This document shows, in pieces, positions 214-52,106 of a stretch of 64,000 bases of DNA. The notes under the pieces are model-generated. The model did not search any database. It was not told the DNA's origin and worked only from the letters and a program-made list of their open reading frames with translations. The translations under genes and the position numbers were made by a program. Each line of letters opens with the position of its first letter. Position 1 is the stretch's first letter. The stretch is from Closterium sp. NIES-65 (Eukaryota > Streptophyta > Zygnematophyceae > Desmidiales > Closteriaceae), in the NCBI GenBank assembly GCA_948144175.1, contig CANXME010000511.1, positions 501,001 to 565,000 on the forward strand, read 5' to 3'.

Positions 214-3136
214 AACCATCAACGGCAGCAGCAGGAGCGTCAACACCAATTGCTGGTCCTTCAACGACACCGCCCCTCATCGACGACACACCACCGACAC
301 CCGCGCAACAACTACACCCAGCACCACGAGAAGTTCATCGTAGCGCCAACTTCACCGCCAACTTCAACTCCAACTTCGATATGTACCGACGATCACTCGG
401 ACATCGCGCCGACGAAAGCACCTGGCACGCAAGGATGAGACACCCAAGCAACACAGTATTAAACAATACGATAAGAGTAGGAGTACTCGACAAGGACTCA
501 CTCTTACTGACCGACGGACGAGAACTTCAACGAGTACGCGAAACGTGCCTCACCTGCCATGAAGGTGACTTACCACATCAACCGTTTGCGTCTCATCACA
601 ACCCGAGCGCTCCCGCATACGCACCACTCGAGAAGGTGTATAGCGACATCCTGTTCAATCGGGAACCAGGACAAGTCACATACAACTACACGATCACCTT
701 CATCGACGCCGCCATCCGTTACGTCTGGCACCTAAACCTCCCTAGCCGCGACATGACATTCGCAACCTTCGTTGCCTGGCTACCAGTAGCAGAGAGAGAA
801 TCGGGCGTGAAACTGAAAAGCTTCCGGTCAGACAGAGGAGGAGAATACACCTCTCAGCGATTCAAGCAGTACCTGGCGGAAAGGGGAATCAAGCGGCTCA
901 TCTCCCTTCCCTACGCCCATCAGCAGCAAGGTGTAGCAGAAAGAATGAGCAGGACCTTGCAGAACAGCATGCGCAAATTGTTACGTGGCATGCGGATACC
1001 CAACCACCAGTGGCCTGCAACAATGGACCACGCCGTCATGCTGCACAACTTGCTGTCGTCATCATCGCTTCCGAACAACGCATCACCGCATCTGCTATGG
1101 ACAGGGAAACAGGGCAGCACAAAAATGTTACGAATATTCGGATGCATGGTACAGTACCGACCCCCAACAGCACGAGCGGGCCGATTTTCTCAACGAGCAC
1201 AGTGGGGACTACACTTGGGAATCGAAAAGAACTACAACGCGTGGAAAATCTTCGACGTCCACTCCAAGGAAACAGTAGCAGCACGTGACGTAATTTTCTA
1301 CGAACGACTCACGCTCCAGACATACCTTGCCAGCCTACAAGAAGACCAGGATCCCACAGGTGGCTTTCGCGGTGACCGAGCCTTCGCCTCAGCAGCGGAC
1401 GAAGCTGACTGGGACGAGCAGAATGTGGACAACGCATCAGAAGAAGCAGGACCTCTTCCGTTCTGCTCCGTCGACGTTCCCATGGACGAAGATAACCCTC
1501 GCGAAAGTGTCAACGCCGAAACCTTCTACCATTTCGCCGACAACGGTTACGTAACACCTGCGACAGTCAACACCAACGAAGCAGAACGAGTAGGACCGAA
1601 CTTCATACCTGATCTAGAAGCGGGAGATGAAGCAGCTTATCCCGAGGACGTAAATCTTCCCCGCTACTCACAAAGTGGACTGCAGATTCTCGGACTCGTC
1701 ACCGCAGTCCACGGCACTGCCACTCCTAAAGAGTCTGCGACAGTTCAACAGGCTCTGGGGGGGGGACACAAGGAAAAATGGCGCTAAGCCATGGACAAGG
1801 AGCTGAAGGCACTGGAGGAACGCAACACGTGGAAAGTGGTTTCTATCGGCGTGGCACGGAACAAGACAGTGCTCAACGGGAAGTGGGTCTTCCGTGTGAA
1901 GACAAAGGCTAACGGCACCATTGACAAATTCAAAGCTCGCTAGGTTGTACGCGGCTTCGACCAAGAGCACGGATGAGACTTCACCGAAACTTTCGCTCCG
2001 GTTAGCCGCCACACCTCACTACGCATTCTCCTCGCAATTGCCGCCATGAAGAAGAAGCTGCGACAAATTGACGTCGCGAACGCGTTTCTCTACGCACCTG
2101 TTGATGCAGAAATCTTCGTCGAGCTACCGCACGGCTCCCACAGAGAACCCAACCAAGTCTGCCAGCTACTCAAGTCACTCTACGGCATAAAGCACGCTCC
2201 GCGACTGTGGCAACAGTACCTGCACGCTCGCCTCATCCGCATCGGCTTCAAGCAACTACCGCACGATCAAGGCATGTACCGGCTCACTAAAAACGACGAC
2301 TACATCCTACTAATCGTCTACGTGGACGACCTTTACATCAGCTCAACTGACAGCATCACTACCTAGTTTGAAGGGGAGCTGCAACGGGATTTCACGCTCA
2401 CAGTTTCATCTACCGTCACTCAGTACCTCGGCCTCAACATCCGGGAAGAGGAGGACGCGATCTACCTCAGCGCCGAGAAATATGCTGACACTATCGCCAA
2501 ACGCTTCACGCTCACACCGACAGCCATCTCCACGCCATACCGATACACGGCAGGGAACGACAAAGGAAACTCCGCTCTACTTAAGCCCGCCGGCATACGA
2601 GACTACCAGAAGAAGCTGGGATGTCTTCTCTTCGCAGCCGTCACCTGTCGCCCCGACCTCTCATACTCCGCAAGCCAGCTCGCCACCTACCTCAAGAAGC
2701 CTGAAGTAGAACTTTCAGAATCCCAACCACTAGACCATTGGGATAAAAGGGCTTGTTTCAGTAGCGGGTCAGTGTTAGAATGAGAAACGAGAATGAGGAG
2801 TGACTAGCAGGAACAACAGTACAAATATGTCAAACCCTAATCTGGTGTACCCCTTATGGTGTGACCCACTACAGCCTAGAACCACACAAACATATAATGT
2901 TTGACACACCCCCATAGGCAAAGTGGGGAGACCTAGGGGTCACAAGACCAGTCAAGGCAAAACAAGGCAAACAAGCTCAGGGTGGATCTCGAGGATTCCA
3001 CACAAATTTCGAGCACAAGCAAGCGGTCACAAGACCAGTTCACATGCAGTTTTATAATAGAGCAAGAGGTACAATGATCACAACCTAACAAGGCAAACAT
3101 GCAGGTATATATATAATGATCACAGTACAGGTAAAG

Positions 3137-8363: not shown

Positions 8364-11300
8364 CTACTGCTGCACGTTGTCATCTTCGTCGCCCACGTCG
8401 GCCAAGCGCACCTGGCCGATGGCGACGGAGCACCGGTTGAAGGCCGGATAGTGCAGCGCCTTTGTCAGGAAGTCGGCTGGCTGCTCAGTGGTCGGGATGT
8501 ACCTCAGCGAGAACTTCCCGCGCTTCACCATGTGCTGCAGCCAGGCCTGTCGCCGCTCCATGTGCTTGAGGTTGCCCGTCAACCCCATGCCCTCGACGAC
8601 TGTGATGGCCGACTTGTTGTCCACCCGAAGGACGGTCGGCTTCCCGGCATCCAGCTGCCGGAACTCTGCAAGGAGGAAGCGAAGTCGGCGTCCTTCCTTG
8701 CCGGCCTCGGTGGCTGCCACGTACTCCGACTCAGTCGATGACAACGTCGCACACTTGATGCGCTGGCTCGACCAGGAGACTGCGGCCCCTCCATAGACGA
8801 ACACGTAGCCACCCGTGCTCGTCCTATTCTGCTTGTCACCGGCGTCGTCGGCGTCCACGTAGCCGACCAGCTCCAGCGACTCAGGTCCACCGCCGAACTC
8901 CAGTGCGGTGTCGCGCGTATTGGCGAGGTAGGCGAGGCAGCGGTCGACCTCGCGCCAGTGCTGGTCGCTCCTCACCGTGAGGCCGCTCCCCAGCTTGCTG
9001 CAGGCGAAGGCGATGTCCGGCCTCGTCGTCGTTGCCGCGAACTGCAGCGAGCCGACCTTCTGCCGGTACTCCTCTTCCTGCCGCTCCTGTGCCTCCTCGT
9101 CATCGAACGTGAGCTCGGCGTAGGCATCGACCGAGACCGGCGTCTTCGGGGTGCGCCCGGTCTGCTCCTCGTCGATGAAGCGCCTACGAAGCTTGTCGGC
9201 GTAGCCCTGCTGGTGCAGCCACAGCTTCCCCTCCGACCTGTCGCGGACGATCTCCAGCCCGAGGTACTTCTGCACCGGCGAGATCTCACGCAGCTCGAAG
9301 GCGGCTTCCAGAAGTTCCTTCAGCTCCTTCAACATCGCGGCGCTACTGCTGGCGGCAAGTAGGTCGTCGACGTAGACCAGCACCCAGCAGGCCACTTCGT
9401 CATCTCCGACCTTGCAGTAGAGAGCCTCGTCGACCTGGCTCTTCTTCCACCCGGCGCCGACCAGCACGTCGTTGAGCGCCAAGTACCACAGCAGCGGCGA
9501 CTGCTTTAGCCCGTACAGGCTCTTCAGCAACTTGCACACCCGGCCGGTCCCGTCGTTGAAGTAGTCTGGCTGGGACATGTAGAGCACCCTGTCGAGCTTG
9601 CTCTGCAAGAAGGCGTTCTTCATGTCGAGCTGCATCAGGTTGAGGTTGCGGACAGCGACGATGCTGAGGAAGATCCTCAGCGTGACGTAGCTGCCCACCG
9701 GCGCGAACGTCTCGTCGTAGTCGGCGCCGTACACCTGCGTGAAGCCCTTCACAACCAGCCTCGCCTTCTCGCGCTCGACGGTGTCGTCGACGTGGTACTT
9801 CGTCGTCAACACCCACCGGTTCTTCATGACGTTCACTCCCGGCGGACGTTCGACCAACTCCCACGTTCCCATGTTGAGGAGGCTGCGAATCTCCTCCTCC
9901 ATGGCGGCCTTCACCGCCGGGCCCTTCCAGCTCGCCAATGCCTCCTTCACCGTCATCGTCGAGATGTCCCAACGGTGCTCGGGGTCGGCTAGCATGTCGG
10001 GGTCGAGCTCCGGAAACTCCTCATCCTCCTCGGCGTCGTCGTACAGCAGGTCGTCGTCATCGTCCACGTCATACACCGTGGTGAAGGCAGCGGGGACGAA
10101 GAAGTCAGGCGGCCTCCGAAGTCGGCCGGAATGCCGTGGTCCCTGCTGGACCGCCGCGGCGTCCCCTCCATCGTCACTGTCGTCGCTGCCCTCGGCGTCC
10201 TGCTGCTCCTCAGCCGGCGTCCCAGCCGACTGCTCCACTGTGGTCGGCTTCCCAGCCGACTTCTCCCCTGTGGTCGGCTCCCCTGCCAACGTCCCGGTCG
10301 CCGACTGCTCCGTGGTCGGCTTCACGGCAGCCTGCTCCCTTGTCGGCTGCTGCTCCCCTGTCGACTGCAATCCCACGTCGATTCGCCGCTCGTCAAGTCG
10401 GCCGCCGGCGATGCACTTGGCCGGCGCCGAAGGCGGCGTCCCACTACTCCCCTCATCGCCGACGGCCGACACCGAGGTCAGCCCACGAAGTTCGGCCACG
10501 AGGGGAGGGGCAGGAGTCAGAGGGAGAGGGGTAGAGGAGCGGACGTCCTCGACGTCCTCAGTAGCAAGCTCACCGACCTCGGCAAGCAGCGGCAGCGTCG
10601 CCGACGAGGTGTCAGAGGGCAAGGTGGACGGCGAGCGGCCGGGTACCGGTCCATGCTCAGTCTTCCACTCGGCCAGCGACATCTCCTCGTAGAACACCAC
10701 GTCCGACGTGGTGACCACTCGGTCGGTGTCGACGTCGAGGAGCTCCCAGCCCTTGCTCACCGCCGACACGCCAAGGTGCAGGCCCCACCTGGCCTTCGGC
10801 TTCAGCTTCCCACCACGCTGCGGCTCAGGGACAAGGAACTGCGCCATGCAGCCCCACACCCGCGCCAGCGACAAGTCGGGCTTCTTCCATGTCAGCAGCT
10901 GGTACGGCGTCGTCCCCGGCGGCAGCGTCGACCTCTCCAGGCAGTTGCGGACCCAGACGGCCTGCCGCAGAGCGAGGTGCCACCAGTGGTGCTGCACGCC
11001 CATGTGCAGCAGCATTGTCCGCACCGACTCTACCACCGTCCTCATCTCCCGCTCTGCCATGCCGTTTTGCTGCGGGGTATATGGGCAGGTCAGGTCGTGG
11101 ACGATCCCCTTGTCGTTCACGAAGTCGGTGAACTGCTTCCCGAGGAACTCCCCTCCCCGGTCAGAGCGCAGCATTAGCACCGACTTCTTCGTCTGCCGCT
11201 CAGCCACCGCCAGCCACTGTACGAACGCCTGCAACACATCGGACTTCTTGGTGACCGGCTTCACCCACACGTAACGGGTCTTGCGGTCCTTCAGCAGCAA

Positions 11301-13619
11301 GAAGTACAGGCTGCCGTCCTTGGCAGCCACGCGAAACGGCCCGCACAGGTCGATGTGCACGACGGCCAGCACGTCGTCGGCGTCGGAGCCTTGGTCGGGG
11401 AAGGTGTGCCGCGCCAGTTTCCCACCAACGCACGAGACACACGGGGAGTCGGCGTCCGTCGCCGACTTGAGGTCCAGCCCAATGGCGACCTCGTTCTTCG
11501 ACGAGCTCCGTATGGTGTCCATGCCGACGTGCGCAAGCCTCGCATGCATTCGGTCCGGCGTCGACTTCGCCTTCGGGACGATCGCCCGCAGAGCCACCAC
11601 CTCCGTCATGGGCGGCGTCGACCTCGTCGCGCAGGGACGCAGGTCGGTGCAGAGGACTCGCCCAGAGTACGTCGCTCGCCCGAGCACCTTCCCTGCTGCC
11701 GAGACGAGCAGCATGCCGTCTCCGTCCTCCTGCAGCTTCACACCATGCTCCTTCAGCTGGCCAGCCGACAGCAGGTTGGCTCGCACAGCCGGGATGTACA
11801 ACACGTCGGGGATGAGCACCTGCTTCCCGGCCTCCCCTTGCAGGGCGACGGTGCCGCGGCCCTGGACATCCTGCAGCGCCCCATTGAAGCCGCGCACGTG
11901 CTTGATGAAGCCGCTCGGCTGCAGGTCGACGAAGACTTCCTTCGTCCCCATCAGGTGGTGGGAGCAACCGCTGTCAAGCAGGACCACCGCCGGGTTCGCC
12001 TGCACAGCCGCCGCCACCGCCTGGAAGTCCTCTCCGGCCTCCGGCGCCAGAGAGATGGTCGGCTTCACGACGCCGACCAGCGAGCACGACGCCGTCTTGT
12101 CGTCTCGCCCCTTGCCGCTTGCAACGGAGTCGGCGTCCTTCGCCGAGGTCGATGTCTTGGTCGACTGCTTCTCCTTGCGCGGCTGGTTTCCTCCTCGACA
12201 AGGACGTCGACTGCCCGACCTCCCGCGGCCGCCCTTGTCGTCGTCGTCGGAGTCACTGCGGTCGGGGCACTCGAAGGAGAGGTGGTCGGGGTCGCCGCAC
12301 AGCCAGCACTCCCGTCGTCGACCTCCTCCTCCTCGACCGCTGTTCTTGGTCGACTTCTTCTTGTCGACCTCCTTGGCCGACTTCCAGCCACCGCTCCCGC
12401 CGCCACCAGACTGTCCGCGCTCTCCTGGTCGACCTCCTTGCTTCGCCGGGGCGACGAAGTTGGCCTGCGCCAAGAGTTCCTGCGACCGCTCAGCCTCCTG
12501 CATCGCCTCGTCCTGCAGGATGTACGAGGTCAAGTTGTCCTCGTTGAGCGTCGCCCTCGTGTTCGGCGACATGGACAGTCGTTTCAGGAGGTTGTAGCTG
12601 CTCGAGAGTCCCTGCATGACATGGGTGATGTATGACGCCGTGGAGTACTGCGCGCCGGCCATCCTGATGGTGGCGAGAATTCGCCGGGCTCGGTTGCAGT
12701 AGTCGGTCGCTGTCTCATCGTCACCCATACGCAGGTGCGTCAGCTGTCCCTCCAGCTGGGCGATAAACAGGTCGTCGGTGACCTGGTACGTCGACTCGAT
12801 GAAGTGCCACGCCCGGTGGCCGGCGTCGATGTACTCTCGGCACCACTTTAAGGCAATCTGCACGCCTGGCGAGCAGCACCGCGAGATGACCGTGAAGGTC
12901 AGCAGCTGCACGGCGCGAAACTCCGCCCGCAAGTCGGGGTGGTTTTCTCCAGGCGTCGCCACAGTCCCTCGGGCGAAGCCGATCAGCCCAGCCATCTCCA
13001 GCTGGGGCTCGATAGCTTCTTTCCAGGTGAGAATGTCGGGTCGACCGACCACTCGGGGGGTGACCGAGATCCTGTCCGGCGTAAACTTGAAGTAGCCGTA
13101 GCTCGGCGCAATTCCACCTGCTGTCACCTGGGACGCCGACATCGGCGACAGCCCACTCCGTCGACCTCCGACGTCACCCTGCGAGGAGACTGCAGCCGCC
13201 GACGACTGCATCCCTCGCGCCTGAACGCCGCCGACTTCACCGGCGTGTATCACACCTCTCTGCCTCGACGTGCCTCCAGCACTGCTGCCGACCTGACCAC
13301 CACCGGCGTTGACGCCCAAGTCGACGCCGCCTTCGTTGTTCACCGGACGAGGGGAAGCAGGTCGAGACGGGTGCTCCGTCGCCCACGTGGAGCGGAGTCC
13401 AGCCTCGACGACCGCCCAGGGCAGGTCGCCATACTCATTGGCCTCATGCTTCCTCCTCGCGTTCTCCAACCGTGCCTCCAGGGTGTCCACCACCCCCGCG
13501 TCACCTACGGCTCCTACCATAGTGACTACAGCACAGTTGCCGGCCTCTAACCACGAAATAGGTAAGTGGTGTCTACGTCGACCTGACTGAAAGGTAAGTC
13601 GTGTGCCGTCCACGCTCAC
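8364..13619 (-). CDS. Copia-C gag-pol polyprotein (1751 residues)
   Basis: A single open frame in the usual Copia order. Gag comes first (about residues 170-400), then a CCHC zinc knuckle (CWLCGDPDHLSFEC, near 438-451) and an aspartic protease with LLDSGCSHH near 548. The pre-integrase motif HARLAHVG is near 690, and the integrase core runs about 755-880 with SDRGGE near 819. An acidic, P/T/E-rich linker spans about 990-1200. Reverse transcriptase has LVYVDDLLAA near 1415, and RNase H runs about 1585-1740. The frame is open to just 8 bp from the 5' LTR, so the true start is probably an internal Met, for example the one near residue 34. It shares little with Copia-B/E/G beyond family-level motifs, so it is a separate lineage. 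Confidence 0.92.
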   Translation of the reverse strand: MSVDGTRLTFQSGRRRHHLPISWLEAGNCAVVTMVGAVGDAGVVDTLEARLENARRKHEANEYGDLPWAVVEAGLRSTWATEHPSRPASPRPVNNEGGVDLGVNAGGGQVGSSAGGTSRQRGVIHAGEVGGVQARGMQSSAAAVSSQGDVGGRRSGLSPMSASQVTAGGIAPSYGYFKFTPDRISVTPRVVGRPDILTWKEAIEPQLEMAGLIGFARGTVATPGENHPDLRAEFRAVQLLTFTVISRCCSPGVQIALKWCREYIDAGHRAWHFIESTYQVTDDLFIAQLEGQLTHLRMGDDETATDYCNRARRILATIRMAGAQYSTASYITHVMQGLSSSYNLLKRLSMSPNTRATLNEDNLTSYILQDEAMQEAERSQELLAQANFVAPAKQGGRPGERGQSGGGGSGGWKSAKEVDKKKSTKNSGRGGGGRRRECWLCGDPDHLSFECPDRSDSDDDDKGGRGRSGSRRPCRGGNQPRKEKQSTKTSTSAKDADSVASGKGRDDKTASCSLVGVVKPTISLAPEAGEDFQAVAAAVQANPAVVLLDSGCSHHLMGTKEVFVDLQPSGFIKHVRGFNGALQDVQGRGTVALQGEAGKQVLIPDVLYIPAVRANLLSAGQLKEHGVKLQEDGDGMLLVSAAGKVLGRATYSGRVLCTDLRPCATRSTPPMTEVVALRAIVPKAKSTPDRMHARLAHVGMDTIRSSSKNEVAIGLDLKSATDADSPCVSCVGGKLARHTFPDQGSDADDVLAVVHIDLCGPFRVAAKDGSLYFLLLKDRKTRYVWVKPVTKKSDVLQAFVQWLAVAERQTKKSVLMLRSDRGGEFLGKQFTDFVNDKGIVHDLTCPYTPQQNGMAEREMRTVVESVRTMLLHMGVQHHWWHLALRQAVWVRNCLERSTLPPGTTPYQLLTWKKPDLSLARVWGCMAQFLVPEPQRGGKLKPKARWGLHLGVSAVSKGWELLDVDTDRVVTTSDVVFYEEMSLAEWKTEHGPVPGRSPSTLPSDTSSATLPLLAEVGELATEDVEDVRSSTPLPLTPAPPLVAELRGLTSVSAVGDEGSSGTPPSAPAKCIAGGRLDERRIDVGLQSTGEQQPTREQAAVKPTTEQSATGTLAGEPTTGEKSAGKPTTVEQSAGTPAEEQQDAEGSDDSDDGGDAAAVQQGPRHSGRLRRPPDFFVPAAFTTVYDVDDDDDLLYDDAEEDEEFPELDPDMLADPEHRWDISTMTVKEALASWKGPAVKAAMEEEIRSLLNMGTWELVERPPGVNVMKNRWVLTTKYHVDDTVEREKARLVVKGFTQVYGADYDETFAPVGSYVTLRIFLSIVAVRNLNLMQLDMKNAFLQSKLDRVLYMSQPDYFNDGTGRVCKLLKSLYGLKQSPLLWYLALNDVLVGAGWKKSQVDEALYCKVGDDEVACWVLVYVDDLLAASSSAAMLKELKELLEAAFELREISPVQKYLGLEIVRDRSEGKLWLHQQGYADKLRRRFIDEEQTGRTPKTPVSVDAYAELTFDDEEAQERQEEEYRQKVGSLQFAATTTRPDIAFACSKLGSGLTVRSDQHWREVDRCLAYLANTRDTALEFGGGPESLELVGYVDADDAGDKQNRTSTGGYVFVYGGAAVSWSSQRIKCATLSSTESEYVAATEAGKEGRRLRFLLAEFRQLDAGKPTVLRVDNKSAITVVEGMGLTGNLKHMERRQAWLQHMVKRGKFSLRYIPTTEQPADFLTKALHYPAFNRCSVAIGQVRLADVGDEDDNVQQ

Positions 13620-14446
13620 CGCACCATGCGGAGATAACTACTACAACGGGAGCTAGGCTACTGGCTAGGCACGTGTGCTCGTGTAATCTCTGCGTTCGTT
13701 GGTCCTTAGACGTATTCCTAGTGCTCACACTACTTGCTAGTTGATGGGGCAATTTGGCAAGAGTTTCACTAGAGAACGTTGTCAGTAATGGTACAATCAA
13801 GTTGGCATGGCCAGACTACATCAAAGCTAGCATTCAGGTTGGTCGACTGCCAGCACAGCATGGTCGACCGCGTTCCAGCACGACTTGGTCGACCGCGCTC
13901 CAGCAGTGCAAAGTCGACAGCTTGCCAACGCTGCAGGTTGACGGTGTGCCAGCATTGCTCACGCAGGACAGCAGTGCACCCGCTTTGCAGGTGCGCGCAG
14001 ATGATTGGCATGCAAAGTCTCGTCATCTGCACAGCGCACACACCAGGTCAACCTCGGGCTAGCGACTGCCTCTGATCCGCCACGACGACCTCGGGATACC
14101 ACCATGGAGGTCGGTCTCGCCAACTTCGCCTGGGTGACCGTCGCACTCCTTCGCAGAACCTCGTCACCCAGGTATCCTGGTCGACTATGTCGACCAGCTG
14201 CTCCTGTATGTGCTCGTCGACCTCCCAAGTCGACAACCACACCAAGTCGACCTCACCAGGTCGACCACTCCTCTGGTCGACCAGCTCCAGGTCAACGTCA
14301 CTCCTGGTCGACCAGTGCAGTTGTCAGCCGACCACCCAAGTCGGCTACCCAAAGTCGGCGTCACCAGGTCGACGCCCCTTCTACGTCGGCGCCGACTTCC
14401 AGGCTGACCTCTCGAAGTCGGCGTCCTCCCAAGTCGGCGCCGACTT

Positions 14447-14526
14447 GCAAGTCGGTGACCTTGCAAGTCGGTGACCTTGCAAGTCGGTGACCTTGCAAGT
14501 CGGTGACCTTGCAAGTCGGTGACCTT
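14447..14526 (+). repeat. 16-bp minisatellite in the Copia-C right LTR, five units
   Basis: Five units of gcaagtcggtgacctt, one fewer than in the left LTR. It lies in a stretch full of GTCGAC and AAGTCGG words. Confidence 0.92.
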
Positions 14527-16409
14527 GCGTACACCCCACCACAAAGTCGGCTCCGCCCAAGCGTGGACGGGGCCAACACACAACTCCCGTTGACAGCCCT
14601 GAGCCGCCGCGGACCCGCCCCTGGCGCCCGCGACAGTGCCACTGCCCCACCCAGCGCCTGCCCTTGGAGCAGCCGCACCCACGACTGCACTCGCTGCAGC
14701 CACCCCTACCTCACCCAGCGCCTGCCCTTGGAGCAGCCGCCTCAGCCTCACCCCGCGCCTGCACTCGCTGCAGCCGCCCCTGCCCTACCCGCGCCGACCC
14801 TCTGTAACCGCTCTGCAGCTTTCTCCCCGCCCCCCCCTCCTCCTTCGTTTCCCTGCAGCCGTGGGGGGGAGGGTAAGGGGGTGGCGGGTGTGGGGGTGAT
14901 GGGTGGTGTGCTTCCTTTCCCCTCCTCCTCCTTTCGTTCCCACTGCTGCAGCTGCCGCTGGGGGGGAGGGTGTGAGGGTGTGGGGGAGCCGGGGGAGTGG
15001 CACTGGGGTGGAGGGTGTGAGAGCAACCAGCAGCCGTCCCTCCACCTCTGCTCTCTTCCCCCTTCTGCTGCTCCTGCAGCAGTATGGGGGGGAGGGGGAG
15101 GGGGAGGGTGAGGGGGTGGCGGGGGTGACCAGCATGTGAAGGCCTGAGCAGGAACCACTGTGGGTAGGGAAGGCGTTGGAGGAAGGGTGGGGGGGAGGGC
15201 GTGAGGTTCCAGGGGGCGGTTGACAAGGGGGGTGAGGTTGAGGGGGGTGGCTGAAAGAGGGTGTGGACTTGGGGGTTCGTAAGAGGGGCTCGCCGCGCTT
15301 GGCTCCCCCCACCTCCTCTCCTCCCTCTGGCCAGTGCCAGAGCCTCCACGACCACCACCGCCGCCTCCACCACGACCACCACCGCCCCTGCCGCCGCCAC
15401 GTCCACTGCCGCCACCACCACCGCCCCCACCCCGGCCACCGCCGCCGCCGCTGCCTCCACCACCCCCACCGCTGCCACTAGCCCCTCCAGCCCCGCCACC
15501 GCCCCCGCCGCTGCCACCACCCCCACCACCGCCTCCCCCGCCGTCACCCCCACCGCCCTTGCCTCCCCTGCCCTTGCCGCTGCGGCGCCCGCTGGGAGCG
15601 GACGCAGAGCCGACCTGCTCAGCACCAAGAAGGTCGACAGCAGCAGCAGAGGCGACAGAGGGGAGGAGGGGGGAGGGGGAACACCCCTCGAAGAAAGGGG
15701 TGCGGGGGTCGCCACGAGAGGCACCTACAGCTACAATACTCTTCTCAGCTGCAATTAGTTCCTTCTCTAGGGCGGTAATGGTGAGCTCAGTAGGGCAGCG
15801 AGCTAGGAAGTGGTCCCTGACTGTACGCAGAGTGTCAGGGAGGCGGGTGACTAGGTGGTAGAGAGTGAGCCAGAGCGGGGGAGGGTTGGAGGCAAGAAAC
15901 TCAGCGGGCATGGCTGCACGGAAGCGGGCATCACTAGTACGGAGGTGAGTGATGAGGTCAGCGACTGTCTGGAAAGCGGACAGGTCGGGGAACAGGTAGG
16001 GAAGGGAGAGACGGCCTAGTGCAGCTGAGGCCGGGGAGGAGTAGCGCGCAACTACAGCAGTGTACAGGGCCTGCGCAGTCTGATGCTGGCCGAAGTGCTC
16101 ACGCTCATCTACTGGCAGGGAGTTGCGAATAGCAAAGCGGGCGTGGGCATCGCGAGTCTGCCACTGCGAGCGAGCAGTAGCGGTAGCAGTAGTAGCAGGA
16201 GCAGGGACTGTGCCTAGTGCGTGATCGTACAGCGAGATATCCTCTCTGGCAGTGAGCTGGAGGAACAGGTGCAGATCATCGAGCCAGGTATCAAACTTAA
16301 TCGGGCGGCCCTCAGAATCGAACGAGAGAACTGTAGGGCTAGCCATAGCTGAAGTGGCAGTAGCAGCAGTGGTGGTAGTAGCAGTAGCAGTAGCAGTGCT
16401 GTGCACAGG

Positions 16410-17016
16410 TAAGTAGGGCGCGGCTCGGCTAGGGCGGCGCGGCTCGGCTAGGGCGGCGCGGCTCGGCTAGGGCGGCGCGGTTCGGCTAGGGCGGCGCGGC
16501 TCGGTTGGGGCGGCGCGGCTCGGCTGGGTCGCGCGGTTCGGTTCGGGTCGCGCCGTGCGGCTCGGTCGTAGAGGGGCGAGCGCGGGAGGGCCGGTCGGGG
16601 CTAGCGCGGGGCCAAAAGGGGGGGGGGGCGTGAGAGGCTAGCGCGGGGCCTGCAGGGGACGTGGGAGGCTAGCGTGGGGCCTTAAGGGGCAGTGAGAGGC
16701 TAGCGCGGGGCCTGCAGGGGCCGTGGGAGGCTAGCGCGGGGCCGACGGGGGCCTTAGGAGGCTAGCGCGGGGCTAGCGTGGGGGCCGACGGGGGCTTAGG
16801 AGGCTAGCGCGGGGCCGATCGGGGGCCTTAGGGGGCTAGCGCGGGGCTAGCGTGGGGCCGACGGGGGCTTAGGAGGCTAGCGCGGGGCCGATCAAGGGCC
16901 TTAGAATGAGGCGCTCGAGGCGCAGGAAAAAGAACGGCGGCGCACGAGGGCGCGGCTAGCGGAAACGGTGGGCCCTATCGTTTCGGTCCTAGGTGGAACC
17001 TAGGCTCGTAATACCA
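16410..17016 (-). repeat. GC-rich tandem-repeat leader of Copia-B
   Basis: Between gag and the 5' LTR lie two kinds of tandem repeat. One is a unit close to ggcggcgcggctcggctag (16410-16560). The other is a unit close to gaggctagcgcggggcc followed by a G-rich spacer (16610-16900). It has no believable protein. Copia-E and Copia-G have equally GC-rich but different repeats in the same place. Confidence 0.8.
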
Positions 17017-17299
17017 TGTTAAAATGAGAAACGAGAATGAGGAGTGACTAGCAGGAACAACAGTACAAATATGTCAAACCCTAATCTGGTGTACCCCTTA
17101 TGGTGTGACCCACTACAGCCTAGAACCACACAAACATATAATGTTTGACAGTCAGTGCGCCCATAACCCCCCAGGCGAACGCGCCTGTAACCCTCTCCGG
17201 GATCAATCGGGCATCCACAGTGCAGATCTACTGACACCCCCCCACACTGGGAGGCTCAAGACTAAGCACAGCGGCAACGGCCTACATGTGCATACACCG

Positions 17300-17354
17300 G
17301 GAATCGAACCCGAGACCGCTCTGATACCATTTTAGAATCCCAACCACAAGACCA
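17300..17354 (-). promoter_or_regulatory. tRNA-like Pol III A and B boxes in TRIM-1
   Basis: On the minus strand an A-box-like TGGTCTTGTGG (17344-17354) lies in the LTR end and a perfect B-box GGTTCGATTCC (17300-17310) lies in the internal part. Their starts are 44 bases apart, the spacing of tRNA genes. The primer-binding site lies between them. Activity is inferred, not shown. Confidence 0.6.
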
Positions 17355-18058
17355 TTGGGATAAAAGGGCTTGTTTCAGTAGCGGGTCAGTGCGCCCATAA
17401 CCCCCTAAGCGAACGCGCCTGTAACCCTCTCCGGGATCAATCGGCCATCCACAATGCAGATCTACTGACAAGAACATCTGGCAGAGCTCGACCGCGCTCT
17501 TCACTACTTCGTCAGCACCCCAACGATCAGCCTAACTTACTACAAGAACGCAACCACACCGACTAAGCTAATTGGCTACGTCCATGCTGATCACGCTGGC
17601 GACTCCGACAATAGGCGCTCCCGCACCGGCTACATCTACCGCCTCGAACCTATCGGACCTATCTCCTGGCAATCAAGTAAGCAGGAATTAATTGCTCTCT
17701 CGTCAGCTGAAGCAGGATATATTGCACTCTGCTCAGCCAAGGAAGGACTCTACCTTCGCGAGCTGCTGGAAGAAGCAAAGTTAGCCGAGTTACCCAACTT
17801 TACCCTGTTCTGCGACAACCAATCGGCAATTCGCATCGCCAACAAGAACGACTTCGCGAACAGGACGAAACACATCGCCCTGCGATATTTCTTCGTGAAG
17901 GACGAGATCGAGAAGGGAAGGCTCGAGCTGTCATACTGTCCCACGTCCGAGATGGCAGCTGACTACATGACCAAGAAGCTCGGAAAGCAGAAGTTCGAAT
18001 ACTGCATGCTGCTGACTGGACAGAGCCACGTCAGCGACACTCCAGAAGCGAAGGGGAG

Positions 18059-30253: not shown

Positions 30254-30969
30254 ATGGCGCAAATCGTCAGAGTCATCACGCTTCTCGCTCTCGTCTCGTT
30301 CTGCGCCGCTGTAGTGGTGGACGGTAATGCCGATTTGATCAAGGCTAAGGAGGCGCTCAAGAAGTGGGGCGAGTACAACACGTACATGACCCTCCTCCAA
30401 TCATCTGGTAACCTCTCGACCCTCTTATCCCCCCCAAGTCCTGTGTAAAAGCCGTCTCTTGTTGTGCTGCATTACCTAGCTTGTCCAGAGTTCTCTTTTT
30501 TCTTTTATTTTCTTTTTCCTCGTTGAACTTAAGGAACTCATTTTTTCCGTATCTTCCCTTTTTCTATTCAGGTTTCGAGCCCATCCTCGCGCGGTACATT
30601 CAGACGCAGCCCGTAACCCTCCTGGTCCCCAACGACAAGGCCTTCGCCACCCTCCCCATGCGCGTCAAGGCACAGCTTTCCGGCTCCAAGCTCATCAAGC
30701 TTCTCGAGTTTCAGATGATTCTCCAAAAGCTTCCCTCCGGATTCCTCAAGATGGCCCAGCCCGGCTCGAAGTTCCGTACCGTGTACGGCGTAACGCTCGT
30801 GAAGCAAAAAGCCGCGCTCAAGAACACCGTGATTCTCGGCGCTCCTGGCGCGACGATGCCGTCGCAGATGGCAGTGGTAACCCGAGGCGACATGGCGGCG
30901 GCGAAGCTGATGCTGCTGTGCCTACACGGCACCAACAACGTCATTCTCCCTCCCAACGTCTTCTTCTAG
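30254..30969 (+). CDS. FAS1-1: small secreted fasciclin-domain protein, two exons
   Basis: Exon 1 is 30254-30407 and exon 2 is 30572-30969. The intron (30408-30571) runs GTAACC...TTCAG and splits a Gly codon in phase 1. The product is 183 residues. Residues 1 to about 20 form a signal peptide (basic start, then a hydrophobic core ending near CAAVVV). A single FAS1 domain fills the rest, with an H1-like box (VTLLVPNDKAFATLP) and an H2-like box at the C end (LHGTNNVILPP). The usual Tyr-His of FAS1 is replaced here (LLEFQM), while both paralogues keep LLNYH. There is no GPI signal or second domain. FAS1 proteins act in cell adhesion and the extracellular matrix, and the role here is inferred from the fold only. 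The start is fixed by the conserved leader word and by FAS1-3. Confidence 0.88.
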
Positions 30970-33262: not shown

Positions 33263-33874
33263 TGGAACAGCTCTAAGCTGTTAGTAGTTCTGAATGCTAA
33301 GTTTCAAGAGTCTAAATTAGCAAGGCAGATTTGGTAGCATGAATTCTGTAAATTTCAGAAAGCAAGAATGGCATACAAGGGACGAAAGACTACTGTTATA
33401 CACATTCCTATGACTATGGCGCCTTGAGAAGTTCGTTCAGGCCGCCATATCACCTTTCTCTGCTGTCTCCAGCTAGGAACAGAATATGTACAAGCAATGA
33501 TAGCAACCCTATGCTGGATCCTAGCTGTTTATATAGAAATATGCAAAGTACAATCATGAGATGGTTCTAGAAGAGCACTAGCTGACTTGGTCTTCTACTT
33601 CATGATGATGGTACTTGGGTCTTGTGGTGCTGGAACGTATTTACAGCTGTATGGCATGGCTAGTTGCTCTGCTGTCGTAAAGATGCTCAGATACTCTCTT
33701 CTCTGCTGCTTTGCTGGTTGGGAATTCACGTGTGCTTTGAGAAATCCCGAAGCGCACATTTCAGGTTGGGATTTCCAACCTCGAATTTGACATTTCAGAT
33801 TGGGTTTTGGCGAAAGTTACAAGTTCGCTAGTGAGCGAACTTTCCTGTGACGAGTTCGCCTTCGCCCTGTAACA
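33263..33874 (-). repeat. Gypsy left LTR (3' LTR)
   Basis: 612 bp, TGGAACAG...CTGTAACA, near-identical to the right LTR. Confidence 0.95.
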
Positions 33875-36800
33875 TTACTCCCCCCTCCAAGGGGCACCGT
33901 CCTCGGTGCACCAGCAGATGCAAAGTAGGCAGAGATAGCTCGTTGTGCATGCTCTAAGTCCTTCTCTGGAATCCAGAGATTTTCTGCATCATCATGCTCA
34001 CGCCACTTAACCAGGAAATATCTGCCACTAGGTGTTGTTTGATGAGCAAGGATCTTCTCAACTTCGAACAAATCAGGGCTTGGAGTGAACATGGGAGGAC
34101 GAGATGGCTGAGAAGTAGGGAGAAAACGAGCTGGAGGGTCATGATATGGGCGTAGTAGCTGGACATGGAAGACTGGATGGATGTTGATGTGAGGAGGAAG
34201 TTTCAGACGGTATGTGAGTGGAGAGAGGACCTGTGTGATTGTGAAGGGACCAATGAAGCGAGGTGCGAGCTTGCGGGTGAGGCCTTGAGTGAGTAGGGGC
34301 AGATTTGTGGTTGAGAGAAGTACTCTGTCTCCTACATGAAAGCGGATGTCACGTCGGTGCTGGTCTGCATAGTGAATCATGCGCTGCTGTGCCCTGGAGA
34401 GTGAGGTGCGTGCTGCTGCTATGGCTTTCTCTTTGTCCTTCAGAAACGCCGTTGCTGCAGTATCACGCTTGGGGCTGTGAACCAGTGAGGTAGGAGTGCG
34501 AGGGTTCTGTCCAGTAGCTAGGTAGAACGGGGTCTGTCCAGTAGCAAGGTTAACGGTGCTGTTGTAGGAGAACTCGATTTCTGGCAGGTGGGTGTCCCAA
34601 TCGTTCTGGCGAGCGTTGACACATGCACGCAAGCCATCTTCCAGAGTTCGATTCATTCTCTCGGTCTGCCCATCAGACTGAGGGTGGTAGGCAGTTGAGA
34701 GGCGAATCTTGGTACCCATCCTGTTGAAAAGGGCCTGCCAGAATCTGCCAACGAAACGGGAGTCACGGTCGGAGATAAGGACAGAGGGAATACCGTGAAG
34801 ACGTACTATTTCTGTGAAGAAACGTTCAGCAACGTCTTCGGCAGTGGCAGTGGTGGAAGTGGGAATGAAATGGGCCATCTTTGTGAGTTTGTCAACCACA
34901 GTGAGAATGGCGTTGTGATGGGTAGCAGTGAGAGGTAAATCAGTGATGAAATCAAGGGTGACATGGCTCCATGGTGTCTCTGGAATTTCCAGGGGATGTA
35001 GGAGGCCATAGGGAGGGGAATTGCGAGCTTTGTTGCACTGACAGGTATGGCAGCTGCGCACGTAGGAGCGGACATCACAGTAGATGTTAGGCCAGAAAAA
35101 GTTTGATGTGATTGCAGCCACTGTTTTGTCCACTCCGAAGTGTGAATTCTGATCGTGATGCTCGCGTAGGAGGAGGAGACGGAGTTTACGGTCAGAGGGG
35201 ACACAGATAGTGTGAGAATCTGCTTTGTACCAGAAGGGAGGGTCAAAGTAGTATGCTTTGTCGGAAGGGGCAGAATGGAGGTAAAAGTTATCATGACGGT
35301 ATCCCTTGGAAAATTTCTTGGTGAAGTCTGGGTCCCATGTCACGCTGCCGATCACAGCAAGCTGAGAGGTTGGGGGACGAGAGAGAACATCGGCAGGGTT
35401 TGTACGGCCAGCACGATACTCAATTTTCAGCTCTGGAACGTACTGCTCAAGAAATTCCATCCATCTTGCCTGCCGTGGTGTGAGATGAGGTTGCGTCTTC
35501 AAGTGCTGCAGAGTGCAATGGTCCGTCAAGACCGTTACCGGCTGCATGTGAACGTAGCAACGCCACTTCTTGATAGCGTTGACTATGGCCAGCGCTTCGC
35601 GGTCATGAGTAGCGTAGTTGCACTCGGCTGGTTTCAGCTTCCGTGAGTCAAACGCGATGGGCTGAAGGCCATGTCCTTGGTCTTGACACAAGATTGCACC
35701 TGTAGCAACTTGAGATGCATCTGTCCAGATGACATAAGGAAGGGAGGGGTCGGGTAGGACTAGGGTGGGAGAAGAGGTAAGAGCATGTTTGATGGTGGTG
35801 AAGGCTTCTTCCTGTTCAGGTCCCCAATGAAAAGGCTGCTGCTTGCGAAGAAGGTTAGAGAGGGGTGAGGTGATGGCTGCAAAATGGTTGATGAATTTTC
35901 TGTAGTAGTTGGCAAGGCCAAGGAAGGCTTGAAGGTCCTTGATGGAAGTGGGCTGGTTCCAGTTTTTAATGACCTGAATCTTGGTGGGGTCCATAGCAAG
36001 CTGATTATGAGAGATGATATGACCCAGGAAAGGGATGGAGGATTTTGCGAACTCACACTTGCTCTCTTTTGCAAAAAGCCGGTGTTCGCAAAGCTTCGTG
36101 AGTACCTGGCGTAGGTGCTCAGAGTGTTCTTTCAATGACTTGCTGAAAATCAGAATGTCATCAATGAAAACAATGACAAACCGATCAAGGAAGTCACGAA
36201 AGATGTTGTGCATCAAGCACATGAAGGTGGCAGGGGCATTTGTGAGTCCAAAGGGAAGTACAAGGAATTCAAAATGCCCATACCGGGTTCGGAATGCTGT
36301 TTTCTCGATGTCTTCTTCAGCGACGCGAACCTGATGGTAACCGCTTCGAAGGTCAAGCTTGCTGAAAATTTTGGCCTCGCCGAGTTGCTCGAAGAGTTCC
36401 TCCACTCGCGGGAGCGGGTATCGGTTCTTGATGGTGAGTTTGTTGAGGGCACGGTAGTCTATACACATGCGAAGGGAGCCATCCTTCTTTTTCACAAAAA
36501 AGGATGGGGGCTGCGTAGGGGGAAGAGCTGACACGAATGAAGCCCTTTTCAAGGAGTTCCTCCAGTTGAGCTTGGACTTCCTTCAGTTCAGCAGCGCTCA
36601 TGCGGTAGGTAGCACGAACAGGAGGTTCAGATCCAGGTTTTAGCACGATCCGGTGATCCACTGAGCGCTTGGGAGGAAGTCCTGTTGGGAGGTCTGAAGG
36701 AAACACATCTTGAAAATCAGTGAGGACTTTCTGAATTTCGGCAGGAGGAGTAGGATTTGGAGAAGAAAGGGCTGAAGGGGCTTTTAAGGTTTGTTGCAGC

Positions 36801-48350: not shown

Positions 48351-48696
48351 CGCTATTTTCAACTCCGAACCCTTGCACTGTTCCCGCGTTTTGAAGATAC
48401 CCTGCACGCATTCGACTATTTCAGTTGGGCACTTGGGGAAGTTGGGCTACGAAGCACCCTGATATGTAATGTTAAGAAACTCATGAAAGCGAATCTGAGA
48501 AGGGGCACTTTTGCTGTTGCGAGTTCCCTTGTGCCACTTCTACTCTTTTTGGGGGTGTGGAACCAGCTCACTGTGAGATCAGTGTGAAATTTCTGACGCT
48601 CACACAACCCTCGGTCAAAGATTCTAGAAAGGGTGCATACCCACTTGCGCGAGTGGGGTTGAAAATAGACGGAAAGAAAATAGCGGTGGTTAGGTG
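48351..48696. other. LARD-like element, internal part
   Basis: No gene, RNA or repeat is recognised. Moderate GC content with several short frames only. Confidence 0.5.
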
Positions 48697-48967
48697 TGTC
48701 AGAATCCCAACCACTAGACCATTGGGATAAAAGGGCTTGTTAACTAGCGGGTCAGTGCGCCCATAACCCCCCAGGACAACGAGTCTGTAACCCTTCCCCT
48801 AGGATCAATCGGGGATCACAAGTGGACCTCTGACACCCCCCCGCACTGGGATGCCCGAAGTGCACACACTGGGATTCAAACCCGAGACCTTCGCTGTGAT
48901 ACCATGTCAGAATCCCAACCACTAGACCATTGGGATAAAAGGGCTTGTTTGTGTAGCGAGTAAGTGC

Positions 48968-50452
48968 TGTCAAGAATCTAGCGTGATATTGGCTTAGGAG
49001 CCATAGTTAGGAGTGACTTAGTTCGAGTTGAAGGGTTGAAGGAAAAGTGTGGAGAGATTTTGGAAGGAGAAAAGTGTTTCAATAATAGAAGGCATACAAG
49101 ATATAGTCAAGGAAATGGGCAAATGGTGCACCACCAAGCAGGAAACTATATAACTACACTAAACTCTACTGTAGGCATTTATAAATGTGTACGAATACAT
49201 TTCAAAACACCCCCTAAATGCCTACAGCTAGAATCGTGTGCAGTACACCTCCTGCAGAGGTACACCAAGTGCAAAGAAAGCAGCAACAACAGACAAGGTA
49301 ATAGAGCAGGTACAATAGCAAAGGGGCAGGCAATCCTGCCACCCCTTTACTCTCCTCCCCCCCCCCCACGAGGGATGGGGGGTGGTTGGTCTCACACCCG
49401 CCACCCCAATCCCAATGCCACTCCCCTGGCTCCCCCACACCCTCACACCCTCCCCCCCAGCGGCAGCTGCAGCAGTGGGAACGAAAGGAGGAGGGGAAGG
49501 GAAACACACCACCCATCACCCCCACACCCGCCACCCCCAGACCCTCCCCCCCGCAGCTGCAGGGAGACGAAGGAGAAGGGGGGGGGGAGGGGGCGACGCA
49601 CGGCCTCCCAGGGCGCCAAAGCAGGCAGCAGAGGGGGCGACGCTTGCCCCCCCCTTCCAGGTCGCGGCCCCTGAAGGAGCCGCGACGGGCGACGGGAAAA
49701 GGGGGGGGTGCGGTGCACGTGCCCCCGGTGTGCTGCGGCTGGCGACGGGGCATGGCCGGGGCGGGGTCGGGGCCGCAAGTGGCGGCGACGGGGCCGCTGG
49801 CGGCGGCGACGAGGCCGCTGGCGGCGGCGACGGGGCCGATGGAGGCGGCGACGGGGCCGCTGGCGGCGACGACGGGGCCGTTGAAAGGGCGGGCGGCGAC
49901 GGGGCCGCTGAAAGGGCGGCGACGGGGCCGCTGAAAGGGCGGAGACGGGGCCGATGAAGAGCGGCGACGGGGCCGCTGAAAGGGCGGCGACGGGGCCGCT
50001 GAAAGGGCGGAGACGGGGCCGATGAAGAGCGGCGACGGGGCCGCGGAAGGGCGGCGACGGGGCCGCGAAGGGGTCGCGAGGGGCCTGAAAGGGTGGCAAC
50101 GGGGCCGCTAAGAGAAAGTTAAGGGGCACGCCACGGGGCGTGCCGAACACAGAGTAGCAGCGGAAGCAGTAAGGCGGGCCCACACGCCATGACCGTAATC
50201 ACTCTGATAGCATGTCAAGAATCTAGCGTGAGTTTGGCTTAGGAGCCATAGTTAGGAGTGACTTAGTTCGAGTTGAAGGGTTGAAGGAAAAGTGTCGAGA
50301 GATTTTGGAAGGAGAAAAGTGTTTCAATAATAGAAGGCATACAGGATATAGTCAAGGAAATGGGCAAATGGTCCACCACCAAGCAGGAAACTATATAACT
50401 ACACTAAACTCTACTGTAGGCATTTATAAATGTATACGAATACATTTCAACA
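48968..50452 (-). mobile_element. NA-2: non-coding LTR element inside TRIM-2
   Basis: LTRs 48968-49209 and about 50214-50452 (about 240 bp each) are nearly the same, and the target duplication is perfect (agtgc at 48963-48967 and 50453-50457). The interior has a C-rich part (about 49320-49650), matching NA-1 in reverse, and a tandem field of gcggcgacggggccgctgaaag units (49760-50090). The primer-binding site at the inner edge of the right LTR (gataccat words near 50195-50213) is only loosely like the initiator-Met motif. Long frames through the repeats are compositional. It inserted after TRIM-2. Confidence 0.85.
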
Positions 50453-50569
50453 AGTGCGCCCATAACCCCCCAGGCCAACATGCCTGTAACCCTTCCCTAG
50501 GATCAATCGGGGATCACCAGTGGACCTCTGACACCCCCCCGCACTGGGATGCCCGAAGTGCACTCACCG

Positions 50570-50627
50570 AGATTCGAACCCGAGACCTTCGTTCTGATAC
50601 CATGTCAGAATCCCAACCACTAGACCA
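50570..50627 (-). promoter_or_regulatory. tRNA-like Pol III A and B boxes in TRIM-2
   Basis: A-box TGGTCTAGTGG at 50617-50627 and B-box GGTTCGAATCT at 50570-50580 (one change from consensus), 47 bases apart. The other unit has the same pair at 48919-48929 and 48872-48882. The A-box text continues TGGTCTAGTGGTTGGGATTC, very like the D-arm region of tRNA-Glu as I remember it. Confidence 0.62.
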
Positions 50628-50741
50628 TTGGGATAAAAGGGCTTGTTAAGTAGCGGGTCAGTGCGCTCATAACCCCCTGGGACAACGAGCCTGTAACCCT
50701 TCCCCTAGGATCAATCGGGGATCACCAGTGGACCTCTGACA

Positions 50742-51497
50742 AGGTGTATCTCCAGTTGTCAGCAACTGCAAGCCGAATTGCTGTCTTTTTGTCTTGCTGC
50801 TGTGGCGAAATCCTCGCTGCCACTGCTCCAGCTATTAGCACCTCGGGCGGTCCTGTCGTCACTCGCCGAGGCCTTTGTCGCGTTGCTCCGAAAACTCCCG
50901 GGCAGAGGCGAAAACAACTGCTGCTTTCCCCCCTTATATCGCAAATATTTTTTCGAAGTTGAACTCAAACTGACGATGACGTCAGCTGCACTGTCGGCGT
51001 TGTCCTGATTCGCCGAACTCTCCCGGGCAGGGGCGAAAAACAGCTGTCGCCTCTCCCCCCAATTTATGTAGCAAAATTCTTCCTCGTGTTGTCGCTAGTA
51101 CCCCTGAGCAACTTCCAATTTGTACAGCTACTTCATTTGACGACGAGTGCCTTCGCACGCTTAATCAAGGAACGCTGCAATTCCGTCATCTGCATGGATG
51201 CTGTCCGCGGCCCCGCTGACTCCGTTAGGACTCATTCTCGTAACTGCTCATTGCCCCCGCAAATGTCGCAAATTAACAGACCCCGAAAATCTAGGTCGCC
51301 CGCAGGTTGTCCTCCGAAAGAACCGGTGTTTCTAGCACACCCACCCGGTCACCATTTTTATCGTGCGGTTAACCACCCAAGCAACCCATCAACAGGAGGT
51401 GCTTTTTTCAGCGTGGAACCCAGTACTTATGGGTCTTCCGAGACCGATTTTCACGGACCCTAGCGCGCATCAACGCCGCAGATCTCACCGTTGAACT
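50742..51497. other. LARD-like element, internal part with degenerate repeats
   Basis: Contains a partly repeated phrase (ctcccgggcagaggcgaaaa near 50905 and ctcccgggcaggggcgaaaa near 51021) about 116 bases apart. No protein is recognised. Confidence 0.5.
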
Positions 51498-51812
51498 TGT
51501 CAGAGGTCCACTGGTGATCCCCGATTGATCCTGGGGGGTTATGGGCGCACTCACCCGCTACTTAACAAGCCTTTTATCCCAATGGTTAGTGGTTGGGATT
51601 CTGACATGGTATCAGAGCAAAGGTCTTGAGCTCGAATCCCGGTGTTTGCACTTCGGGCACCCCAGTGCGGGGGGGTGTCAGAGGTCCACTGGTGATCCCC
51701 GATTGATCCTAGGGAAGGGTTACAGGCTCGTTGTCCTGGGGGGTTATGGGCGCACTAACCCGCTACTTTACAAGCCCTTTTATCCTAGTGGTTAGTGGCT
51801 GGGATTCTGACA
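51498..51812 (+). mobile_element. TRIM-3: complete miniature LTR element (315 bp)
   Basis: LTRs 51498-51606 (109 bp) and 51676-51812 (137 bp), TGTCAGAGGTCC...GATTCTGACA, flank only 69 bp. The left LTR lacks about 28 bases that the right one has. The target duplication is perfect (gaact at 51493-51497 and 51813-51817). The primer-binding site TGGTATCAGAGC (51607-51618) directly follows the left LTR, and a G-run (about 51669-51675) directly precedes the right one. This is the clearest example of the family. The tRNA-like boxes are weaker here (TGGTTAGTGG at 51583-51592, AGCTCGAATCC at 51629-51639). Confidence 0.9.
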
Positions 51813-52106
51813 GAACTCCCCCAGGTAAACTCCTGAAGTACCGTGAAGCTTAAAACAAGTGGCGAGCAGACGTTTACCCGTCTCCCACCGTCGAAATGTC
51901 ACCCGAAAATCATGGTTGCGGAATCAAGCTCCGAAGTATTTTCTGCCTTGTAGCCCCGACGTTTCCAGCGTTGACCTTGGTACTCCGACGTTCACCCATC
52001 TTCGTACCCGTCAAAATTACTTAGCAAATCCCAAGCATCCTTGGCAATACACCCCTCGCCGCGCCTCCATGTAACAATATCAAACCCTTTCGGATGTCTA
52101 CTGAAT
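51813..52106. other. LARD-like element, short internal part
   Basis: Lies between TRIM-3 and NA-3. No gene is seen. Confidence 0.5.

Follow-up and report, generated by a model that had tools for sequence, protein, structure and literature searches.

In this study, a 64,000-nt window of Closterium sp. NIES-65 (contig CANXME010000511.1), a strain of the C. peracerosum-strigosum-littorale complex (PMC10407611), was analysed and found to contain terminal-repeat retrotransposons in miniature (TRIMs) in which an A box, a primer-binding site (PBS) and a B box follow one another across the end of a long terminal repeat (LTR) and the adjoining internal part. On the evidence of the sequence, the Closterium TRIM is probably (at about 0.7) a non-coding, multicopy element with a tRNA-type RNA polymerase III (Pol III) promoter assembled across the junction of the 5′ LTR and the internal part.

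Boxes across the junction of LTR and internal part

The window held three insertions (A, B and C) with a total of seven LTRs, 109–141 bp in length, and four internal parts of 69 bp (n = 3) or 93 bp (n = 1). Identical 5-bp target-site duplications (TSDs) were present at all three: GTTCT for A, CACCT (element orientation) for B and GAACT for C. The four internal parts all open with a PBS for initiator tRNA-Met, TGGTATCAGAGC or a one-base variant, with no mismatch in A and C and one in each of the two internal parts of B (Ba and Bb), and each is closed by a G7 stretch just before the 3′ LTR. Two short LTRs, a PBS, a polypurine tract, a short TSD, the lack of coding sequence and a length below 1000 bp are the features by which TRIMs are recognised, and the insertions fit them. 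The sizes, primer and perfect duplications given in an earlier, sequence-only reading were borne out; the TG...CA ends that it described do not hold for insertion A, both LTRs of which end in AA, not CA. That reading had also placed the three loci within positions 48697..51812, where B and C were indeed found, whereas A lies elsewhere (17470-17151 plus 2767-2713, minus strand).

Across each junction, the A box (3′ end of the LTR) came first, then the initiator-Met PBS and then, within the internal part, the B box. The majority boxes of the four junctions are TGGTCTAGTGG (A) and GGTTCGAATCC (B), and the four-junction consensus reads CAAGCCC TTTT ATCCCAA TGGTCTAGTGG TTGGGATTCTGACA / TGGTATCAGAGC GAAGGTCTCG GGTTCGAATCC CGG, with the slash marking the LTR end. 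Distances between the starts of the homologous A and B boxes were 44 (A), 47 (Ba and Bb) and 46 (C, one base missing). Junction A has a perfect B box and an A box with one core change, junctions Ba and Bb have a perfect A box and one change each in the B box, and junction C has an A box short of one base and a B box with two changes. The arrangement and the 44–47 spacing described earlier are thereby confirmed, but both boxes are perfect in none of the four window junctions and only in the majority sequence.

For comparison with chance, a flexible tRNA A-box pattern plus GGTTCRANNCC was scored against 5000 dinucleotide shuffles, and a stricter run used a rigid A-box pattern and 3000 shuffles; we took these patterns to represent the two boxes. 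In plants, T and GG are reported as conserved in A boxes and GG and CC in B boxes (PMC11700998). The majority sequence, with 0 A+B mismatches and 5/5 pairs in the T stem, was equalled by 1/5000 shuffles, and by 0/5000 when the T stem was included. Single copies were equalled by 6/5000 (A), 4/5000 (Ba) and 6/5000 (Bb) in the flexible test, by 0/5000, 0/5000 and 3/5000, respectively, with the T stem added, and by 48/3000, 41/3000 and 38/3000 with the rigid pattern (C, 1366/3000). In copies A and C, the scoring settled on an A-box match next to the homologous box; the coordinates given below are those of the homologous boxes. Mismatches in the A+B pair numbered 1 (A), 1 (Ba), 1 (Bb) and 3 (C), as against 4–6 at eight other PBS-like junctions of the window. 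Within the LTR alone, no A+B pair above shuffles was detected on either strand, the best having 4–5 mismatches in 7/7 LTRs and being equalled by 111–250/300 shuffles (sense) and 52–221/300 (antisense). A rigid scan of the whole window at up to 2 mismatches returned 8 rows, of which junctions A, Ba and Bb account for 5.

Insertion B (48697..50741, minus strand, TSD CACCT on both sides) is one tandem insertion of the form LTR-int-LTR-int-LTR (L3I2), with three LTRs and two internal parts; a nested element splits the middle LTR. It consists of LTR B1 (139 bp, 50603..50741), internal part Ba (69 bp, 50534..50602, PBS at the start and G7 polypurine stretch at the end), the first (5′) part of LTR B2 (50453..50533), the second (3′) part of B2 (48905..48967), internal part Bb (69 bp, 48836..48904) and LTR B3 (139 bp, 48697..48835), all on the minus strand. 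At Ba, the A box TGGTCTAGTGG (50617..50627) lies within B1, followed by the PBS TGGTATCAGAAC (50591..50602, 1 mismatch to TGGTATCAGAGC) and, within the internal part, the B box GGTTCGAATCT (50570..50580, 1 mismatch); the sole T4 run of B1 (TTTT, 50635..50638) is 7 nt upstream of the A box, and its CAA is at 50643-50645. At Bb, the A box (48919-48929) and TTTT (48937-48940) lie in the second part of B2, and the PBS (48893-48904, 1 mismatch) and B box GGTTTGAATCC (48872-48882) in the internal part; the TTTT of B3 (48729-48732) is the predicted Pol III terminator.

Insertion C (51498..51812, plus strand, TSD GAACT) is a complete TRIM (LTR 51498-51606, internal part 51607-51675, LTR 51676-51812), in which LTR C5 is shorter, with approximately 30 bp of U3 missing. 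Its A box is TGGTTAGTGG (51583..51592, one base missing), its PBS the exact TGGTATCAGAGC (51607..51618) and its B box AGCTCGAATCC (51629..51639, 2 mismatches), all on the plus strand. Insertion A, on the minus strand, begins with a stretch at 17237..17470 made up of the 5′ LTR (17330-17470, A box with one core change at 17344-17354) and the internal part (17237-17329), the latter with an exact PBS (17318-17329) and the B box GGTTCGATTCC (17300-17310). The first part of its 3′ LTR is at 17151..17236 and the second, beyond a 14.4-kb insertion, at 2713..2767, with an intact A box and TTTT at 2745-2748; the TSD GTTCT occupies 2708-2712 and 17471-17475.

Recurrence and conservation of the boxes

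Copies beyond the window were studied as translated pieces inside predicted Closterium proteins. The translated frame of copy C matched 31 predicted proteins (E up to 10), and a profile of ten of these matched 94 (E up to 0.001), all 31 included; the profile search scored the 7996 candidates with the most shared words. All 94 proteins are named Closterium sp. NIES-53 or NIES-54. Such copies show open frames only, so that indels not divisible by three are hidden. The succession of A box, PBS and B box was readable at 25 places in 22 of the 94 proteins (up to 6 changes), with a spacing of 47 in 11 and 44 in 14, which are both values of the window; with a wider pattern, no other A-to-B spacing was found among these in-frame copies. 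Absence of the boxes or their spacing from other copies had been named beforehand as the observation that would speak against the sequence-only reading, and both were present. Over the unit, the B-box codons G (75/80, 94%), F (77/78, 99%), E (74/78, 95%) and S (76/78, 97%) rank among the best kept. A pattern allowing up to 5 changes matched 69 LTR ends in 59 proteins, where the codon completing the GG of the A box was V in 50, T in 15, I in 2 and A in 2.

Comparison of LTR A3 with B3 showed differences in 20/63 columns at 1–63, 1/32 at 64–95, 3/3 at 96–98, 0/42 at 99–140 and 1/3 at 141–143. Excess identity of A3 with the B LTRs in the last 45 columns gave P values of 4e-4 (B1 and B3) and 1.5e-3 (B2), with the boundary picked after the alignment had been seen. 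The fully kept block opens with AACAAG, near the expected start of plant Pol III.

Several observations concern the predicted proteins themselves. Many (P0011-P0036, NIES-53/54) enter the TRIM at SEGLGFES, after TATCAG inside the PBS, and some of NIES-53/54 join LVVLG to ERRSRVRIP; the PBS may act as a 3′ splice site for gene predictors or in real splicing. Chimeric reads such as TSPFIPM-ARSPGGLWAHSDPLL occur in P0009, P0010, P0042, P0069, P0071, P0075 and P0094, which suggests head-to-tail fusion of LTR cores at the A box, in short tandem arrays. At the DNA level, a search of viral contigs with 26-base and 21-base TRIM strings gave 0 matches, and a PBS plus B-box pattern gave 0 matches in genome contigs and 1 in viral contigs; this last contig (L001), read in part, was judged not to be an LTR element and has 3 mismatches in its best A+B pair. 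A TGACA plus PBS pattern gave 5 matches (L002-L006), about the chance number by estimate, with 4–5 mismatches in the best A+B pairs.

Predicted transcript and tRNA likeness

Each of the 7 LTRs has one T4 run, at a shared site, and none of the 4 internal parts has any; in the four 5′ LTRs for which the distance was taken, the run stands 7 nt ahead of the A box. The first A of a CAA precedes the A box by 17 nt (A, Ba and Bb) or 16 nt (C); 17 nt before the A box corresponds to position -10 of a tRNA gene. In plants, start sites have been reported at CAA triplets up to 10 bases upstream of tRNA genes, and the rules for these genes cover poly(T) as well (PMC11700998). The sequence thus predicts a start at CAA, a stop at T4 and an R region of approximately 10 nt: from CAA to the next T4, the predicted transcripts are 244 (A), 218 (Ba), 218 (Bb) and 215 nt (C); those of A, Ba and Bb begin and end with AAGCCCTTTT, and the two ends of that of C differ by one base.

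If, as we infer, Pol III transcribes the Closterium TRIM, TFIIIC would bind both boxes, one on each side of the PBS (A in the 3′ end of the LTR, B in the internal part). Transcription would begin near the CAA approximately 17 nt before the A box, pass through U5, the PBS, the internal part and U3, and end at the TTTT in the 3′ LTR. With a length of 215–244 nt, the RNA would carry the approximately 10 nt of AAGCCCTTTT at both ends, sufficient for first strand transfer; initiator tRNA-Met would prime at the PBS, and reverse transcriptase and integrase from a Copia-type helper would give rise to the 5-bp duplications. Since the B box is outside the LTR, the full promoter would exist at the 5′ junction only, and 3′ LTRs and solo LTRs would be silent for Pol III. 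A fuller scheme, in which a promoter arises only by the joining of LTR and internal part, so that full-length copies alone are transcribed, CAA and T4 set a 10-nt R just before the A box, and the RNA is drawn into a ring by one initiator tRNA-Met at both PBS and U3, is put forward tentatively and is doubtful as a whole.

The U3 contact in this scheme refers to GGGTTATGGGCGCAC, found in LTR C3 (51741..51755, plus strand), 14/15 bases of which complement the presumed anticodon arm of tRNA-iMet from plants. The stretch is present in 7/7 LTRs, with one further change in B1, and falls in the kept LTR columns 64–95. Against this presumed tRNA, which is not that of Closterium, 0–4/2000 shuffled LTRs matched as well for six LTRs and 43/2000 for B1; with the tRNA shuffled instead, the numbers were 0–5 and 45 (B1). 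In the 94 proteins the stretch appears in three frames, as GYGRTDP (53 sites in 47 proteins), GLWAHSDP (16 in 14) and GVMGALTRY (2 in 2). A second complement to initiator tRNA-Met in U3, as judged on the TRIM side by complementarity to the presumed tRNA, would resemble the bipartite PBS of Ty3. The Ty3 primer tRNA pairs with both PBS and U3, but its U3 part pairs with other tRNA arms (PMC5371799); the fit to the anticodon arm is rather that of the half-tRNA PBSs of copia and Ty5 (PMC5371799, PMC10886601). The anticodon loop of tRNA-iMet is the commonest primer type of fungal Helenus elements (PMC10886601). The stretch is a lead for further study, as a second tRNA contact, an old PBS or a chance match.

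No tRNA gene was found in the window by ARAGORN, and the Rfam tRNA model gave no report for the junctions other than Ba. The junctions have neither the cloverleaf nor the recognised tRNA of a functional tRNA gene: the anticodon-like stem, formed by the LTR end with the PBS, is broken in 2/4 copies and the T stem in 2/4, folding z-scores of the four junctions (-0.8 to +0.6) are no better than those of shuffles, and no covariation was detected in the four-junction alignment. A kept tRNA cloverleaf was rejected on these grounds. The PBS does occupy the position of the anticodon region, as had been proposed, but not within a maintained fold. All 5 distinct LTR ends can form a 7-bp hairpin around the A box, with a single two-sided change, in C3; 105/500 shuffles did equally well. 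Folded alone, one 25-nt hairpin (LTR B1) was better than 195/200 shuffles. N is combined with T in 12/69 translated ends, so that the last pair of the A-box hairpin would break there. The label "tRNA-Glu-like" given earlier is unproved; the likeness is to animal tRNA-Glu. The remnant, as far as its sequence tells, is promoter text and not tRNA function, as Kojima argues for Helenus (PMC10886601).

Known relatives, rival explanations and meaning

The sequence-only reading knew of no TRIM with a split tRNA-Glu-like promoter. For tRNA promoters in TRIMs as such, novelty was not upheld: Helenus, a group of TRIMs with tRNA promoters, was published in 2024 (Kojima, PMC10886601), and the same paper unites Helenus, Ajax and Cassandra as TRIMp3, TRIMs whose Pol III promoter derives from the gene of a small RNA. 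Helenus shares with the Closterium TRIM a SINE-like size (short interspersed nuclear element), A and B boxes of tRNA type, a PBS, a polypurine stretch and, in plants and fungi, the 5-bp TSD. By its description, Helenus-1_SMo of Selaginella (LTR 120 bp, internal part 85 bp) is near the 109–141 and 69–93 bp found here, and a Helenus family, LTR-11_DR, is also reported in tandem arrays. In Helenus, however, both boxes are within the LTR, whereas the Closterium LTR holds the A box only, the B box being internal with the PBS between; the B box being outside the LTR, the element falls outside the definition of Helenus, which requires the tRNA-derived sequence to be within the LTR, although it would function as Helenus does. 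Zygnematophyte algae, to which the host belongs, are absent from table 1 of PMC10886601.

Cassandra likewise combines a Pol III promoter in a TRIM, the PBS TGGTATCAGAGC and tandem LTR-int arrays (PMC7215508, PMC10853983, PMC10886601). Its transcripts are described as running from the 5′ LTR into the 3′ LTR, which yields a short terminal repeat of 18 bp (PMC10886601), compared with approximately 10 predicted here; Cassandra too would have to pass a terminator early and obey it late. Its 5S promoter (box A, box C) lies inside the LTR, unlike the tRNA-type promoter split by the PBS. With Rfam 5S no match was obtained at the gathering score in the window, nor up to E 10 in 48600-51900 and 17200-17500, so that the element is no Cassandra, which has 5S-derived sequence in the LTR. 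Plant TRIMs often form L3I2 arrays like that of insertion B (TA-TRIM; Gao et al. 2016, PMC4717578); the main text of that paper mentions neither "tRNA" nor "polymerase III". With tRNA-derived SINEs the Closterium TRIM has in common that A and B boxes are internal and that the predicted RNA measures 215–244 nt, but it differs in having LTRs, PBS, polypurine stretch and a fixed 5-bp TSD, and probably in integrating by the LTR pathway. SINEs are defined by the lack of LTRs, a LINE-type (long interspersed nuclear element) tail and target-primed integration with a variable TSD, whereas LTRs, PBS and 5-bp TSD were present at 3/3 insertions. No description of a promoter split by the PBS appeared among the titles and abstract openings of the open-licence PMC papers searched. 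To judge from sequence and from these sources, the Closterium TRIM is a multicopy, above-chance, putative split-promoter variant of TRIMp3, that is, a known class in a new layout.

Other elements lie around the insertions. The element nested in the middle LTR of B (48968-50452, approximately 1.5 kb, TSD AGTGC) is an LTR element with 238-bp repeated ends, a PBS-like TGCTATCAGAGT and G+C-rich repeats of 21–23 bp in its internal part. The 14.4-kb stretch within the 3′ LTR of A (2773-17150) is bounded by its own TSD, CTGAC, and contains Copia-type pol open reading frames (ORFs; 3137-6571 and 8364-13637, minus strand), so that it probably consists of nested elements. A Gypsy-type pol ORF with a chromodomain is at 33817-36582 (minus strand). 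None of the Copia or Gypsy pol ORFs of the window was linked to the TRIM as its helper. A FAS1-type ORF (30412-30969) had 100% identity to a Closterium sp. NIES-65 protein over 72% of its length and 91% to a Closterium sp. Naga37s-1 protein over 81%.

Several results weigh against a working Pol III promoter at these junctions. Copy C was no better than chance (equalled by 685/5000 shuffles, and by 228/5000 with the T stem). LTR A3 showed no excess identity with C3 in the last 45 columns (P 0.18), and the Rfam tRNA model matched at 1/4 junctions only (Ba, 50559-50642), with 20 bits, below the gathering score of 29. The A-box codons G (84/91), L (77/85) and V (77/87) are no better kept (89–92%) than their neighbours. 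At the codon completing the GG of the A box, T or I stands in 17/69 LTR ends, so that the last G of the box is there probably A (GA for GG); this applies to 11/14 junctions spaced 44 versus 0/11 spaced 47, and in 10/14 of those spaced 44 the second PBS codon is C, not Y. The translations thus speak against a strictly kept A box in the 44-spaced subfamily. With regard to the stop, the bases of TTTT cannot be read in translated copies; one T4 per unit occurs in 36–40% of shuffles, so that placement counts and not presence; and T4 is a minimal terminator which, in the 5′ LTR, comes 7–10 nt after the start predicted there, so that transcription may end early.

Three other explanations were considered. 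The elements might be ordinary Pol II TRIMs, with TTTTATCC as a TATA-like sequence and a B-box-like sequence left over from a helper leader downstream of the PBS. TRIMs other than Cassandra have been described as Pol II elements (PMC10853983), TTTTATCC is approximately 35 nt upstream of the LTR end, and NIES-53/54 gene predictions run through pieces of the element. We nevertheless consider this unlikely, given that no AATAAA-like or TATAWA motif was found in 7/7 LTRs, that such a TRIM would not be expected to combine A box, B box and 5-bp T stem at the spacing of a tRNA, and that the eight other PBS-like junctions of the window lack such boxes. Beyond the TRIM copies, copy C shares with the window only PBS junctions and matches of 13–17 nt, so that no helper leader was seen there. 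Somewhat less probable still is a dead relic, i.e., a tRNA-derived SINE or tRNA fragment trapped at the LTR/internal border and hitch-hiking without use as a promoter. The lack of a window junction with both boxes perfect (0/4), the A box weakened in one subfamily (17/69 ends) and the lost cloverleaf would fit such a relic, but few parts are as well kept between subfamilies and copies as the last 42 LTR columns and the B-box codons, and the spacing is held at two values. Random matches of both boxes in a conserved TRIM end are very improbable: the A boxes are loose (for A, Ba and Bb approximately 0.1% of shuffles with the flexible pattern and 1.3–1.6% with the rigid one) and copy C is unremarkable, but 0/5000 shuffles equalled the majority sequence with its T stem and 25 further junctions were found.

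A tRNA-type Pol III promoter split between LTR and internal part, if true, would explain how the TRIM spares flanking DNA from transcription out of the 3′ LTR, and would tie promoter activity to the PBS region. For Pol III TRIMs in general, it would predict that R can arise only where start and T4 stop overlap. Annotation is affected as well: 94 predicted Closterium proteins contain pieces of this non-coding TRIM.

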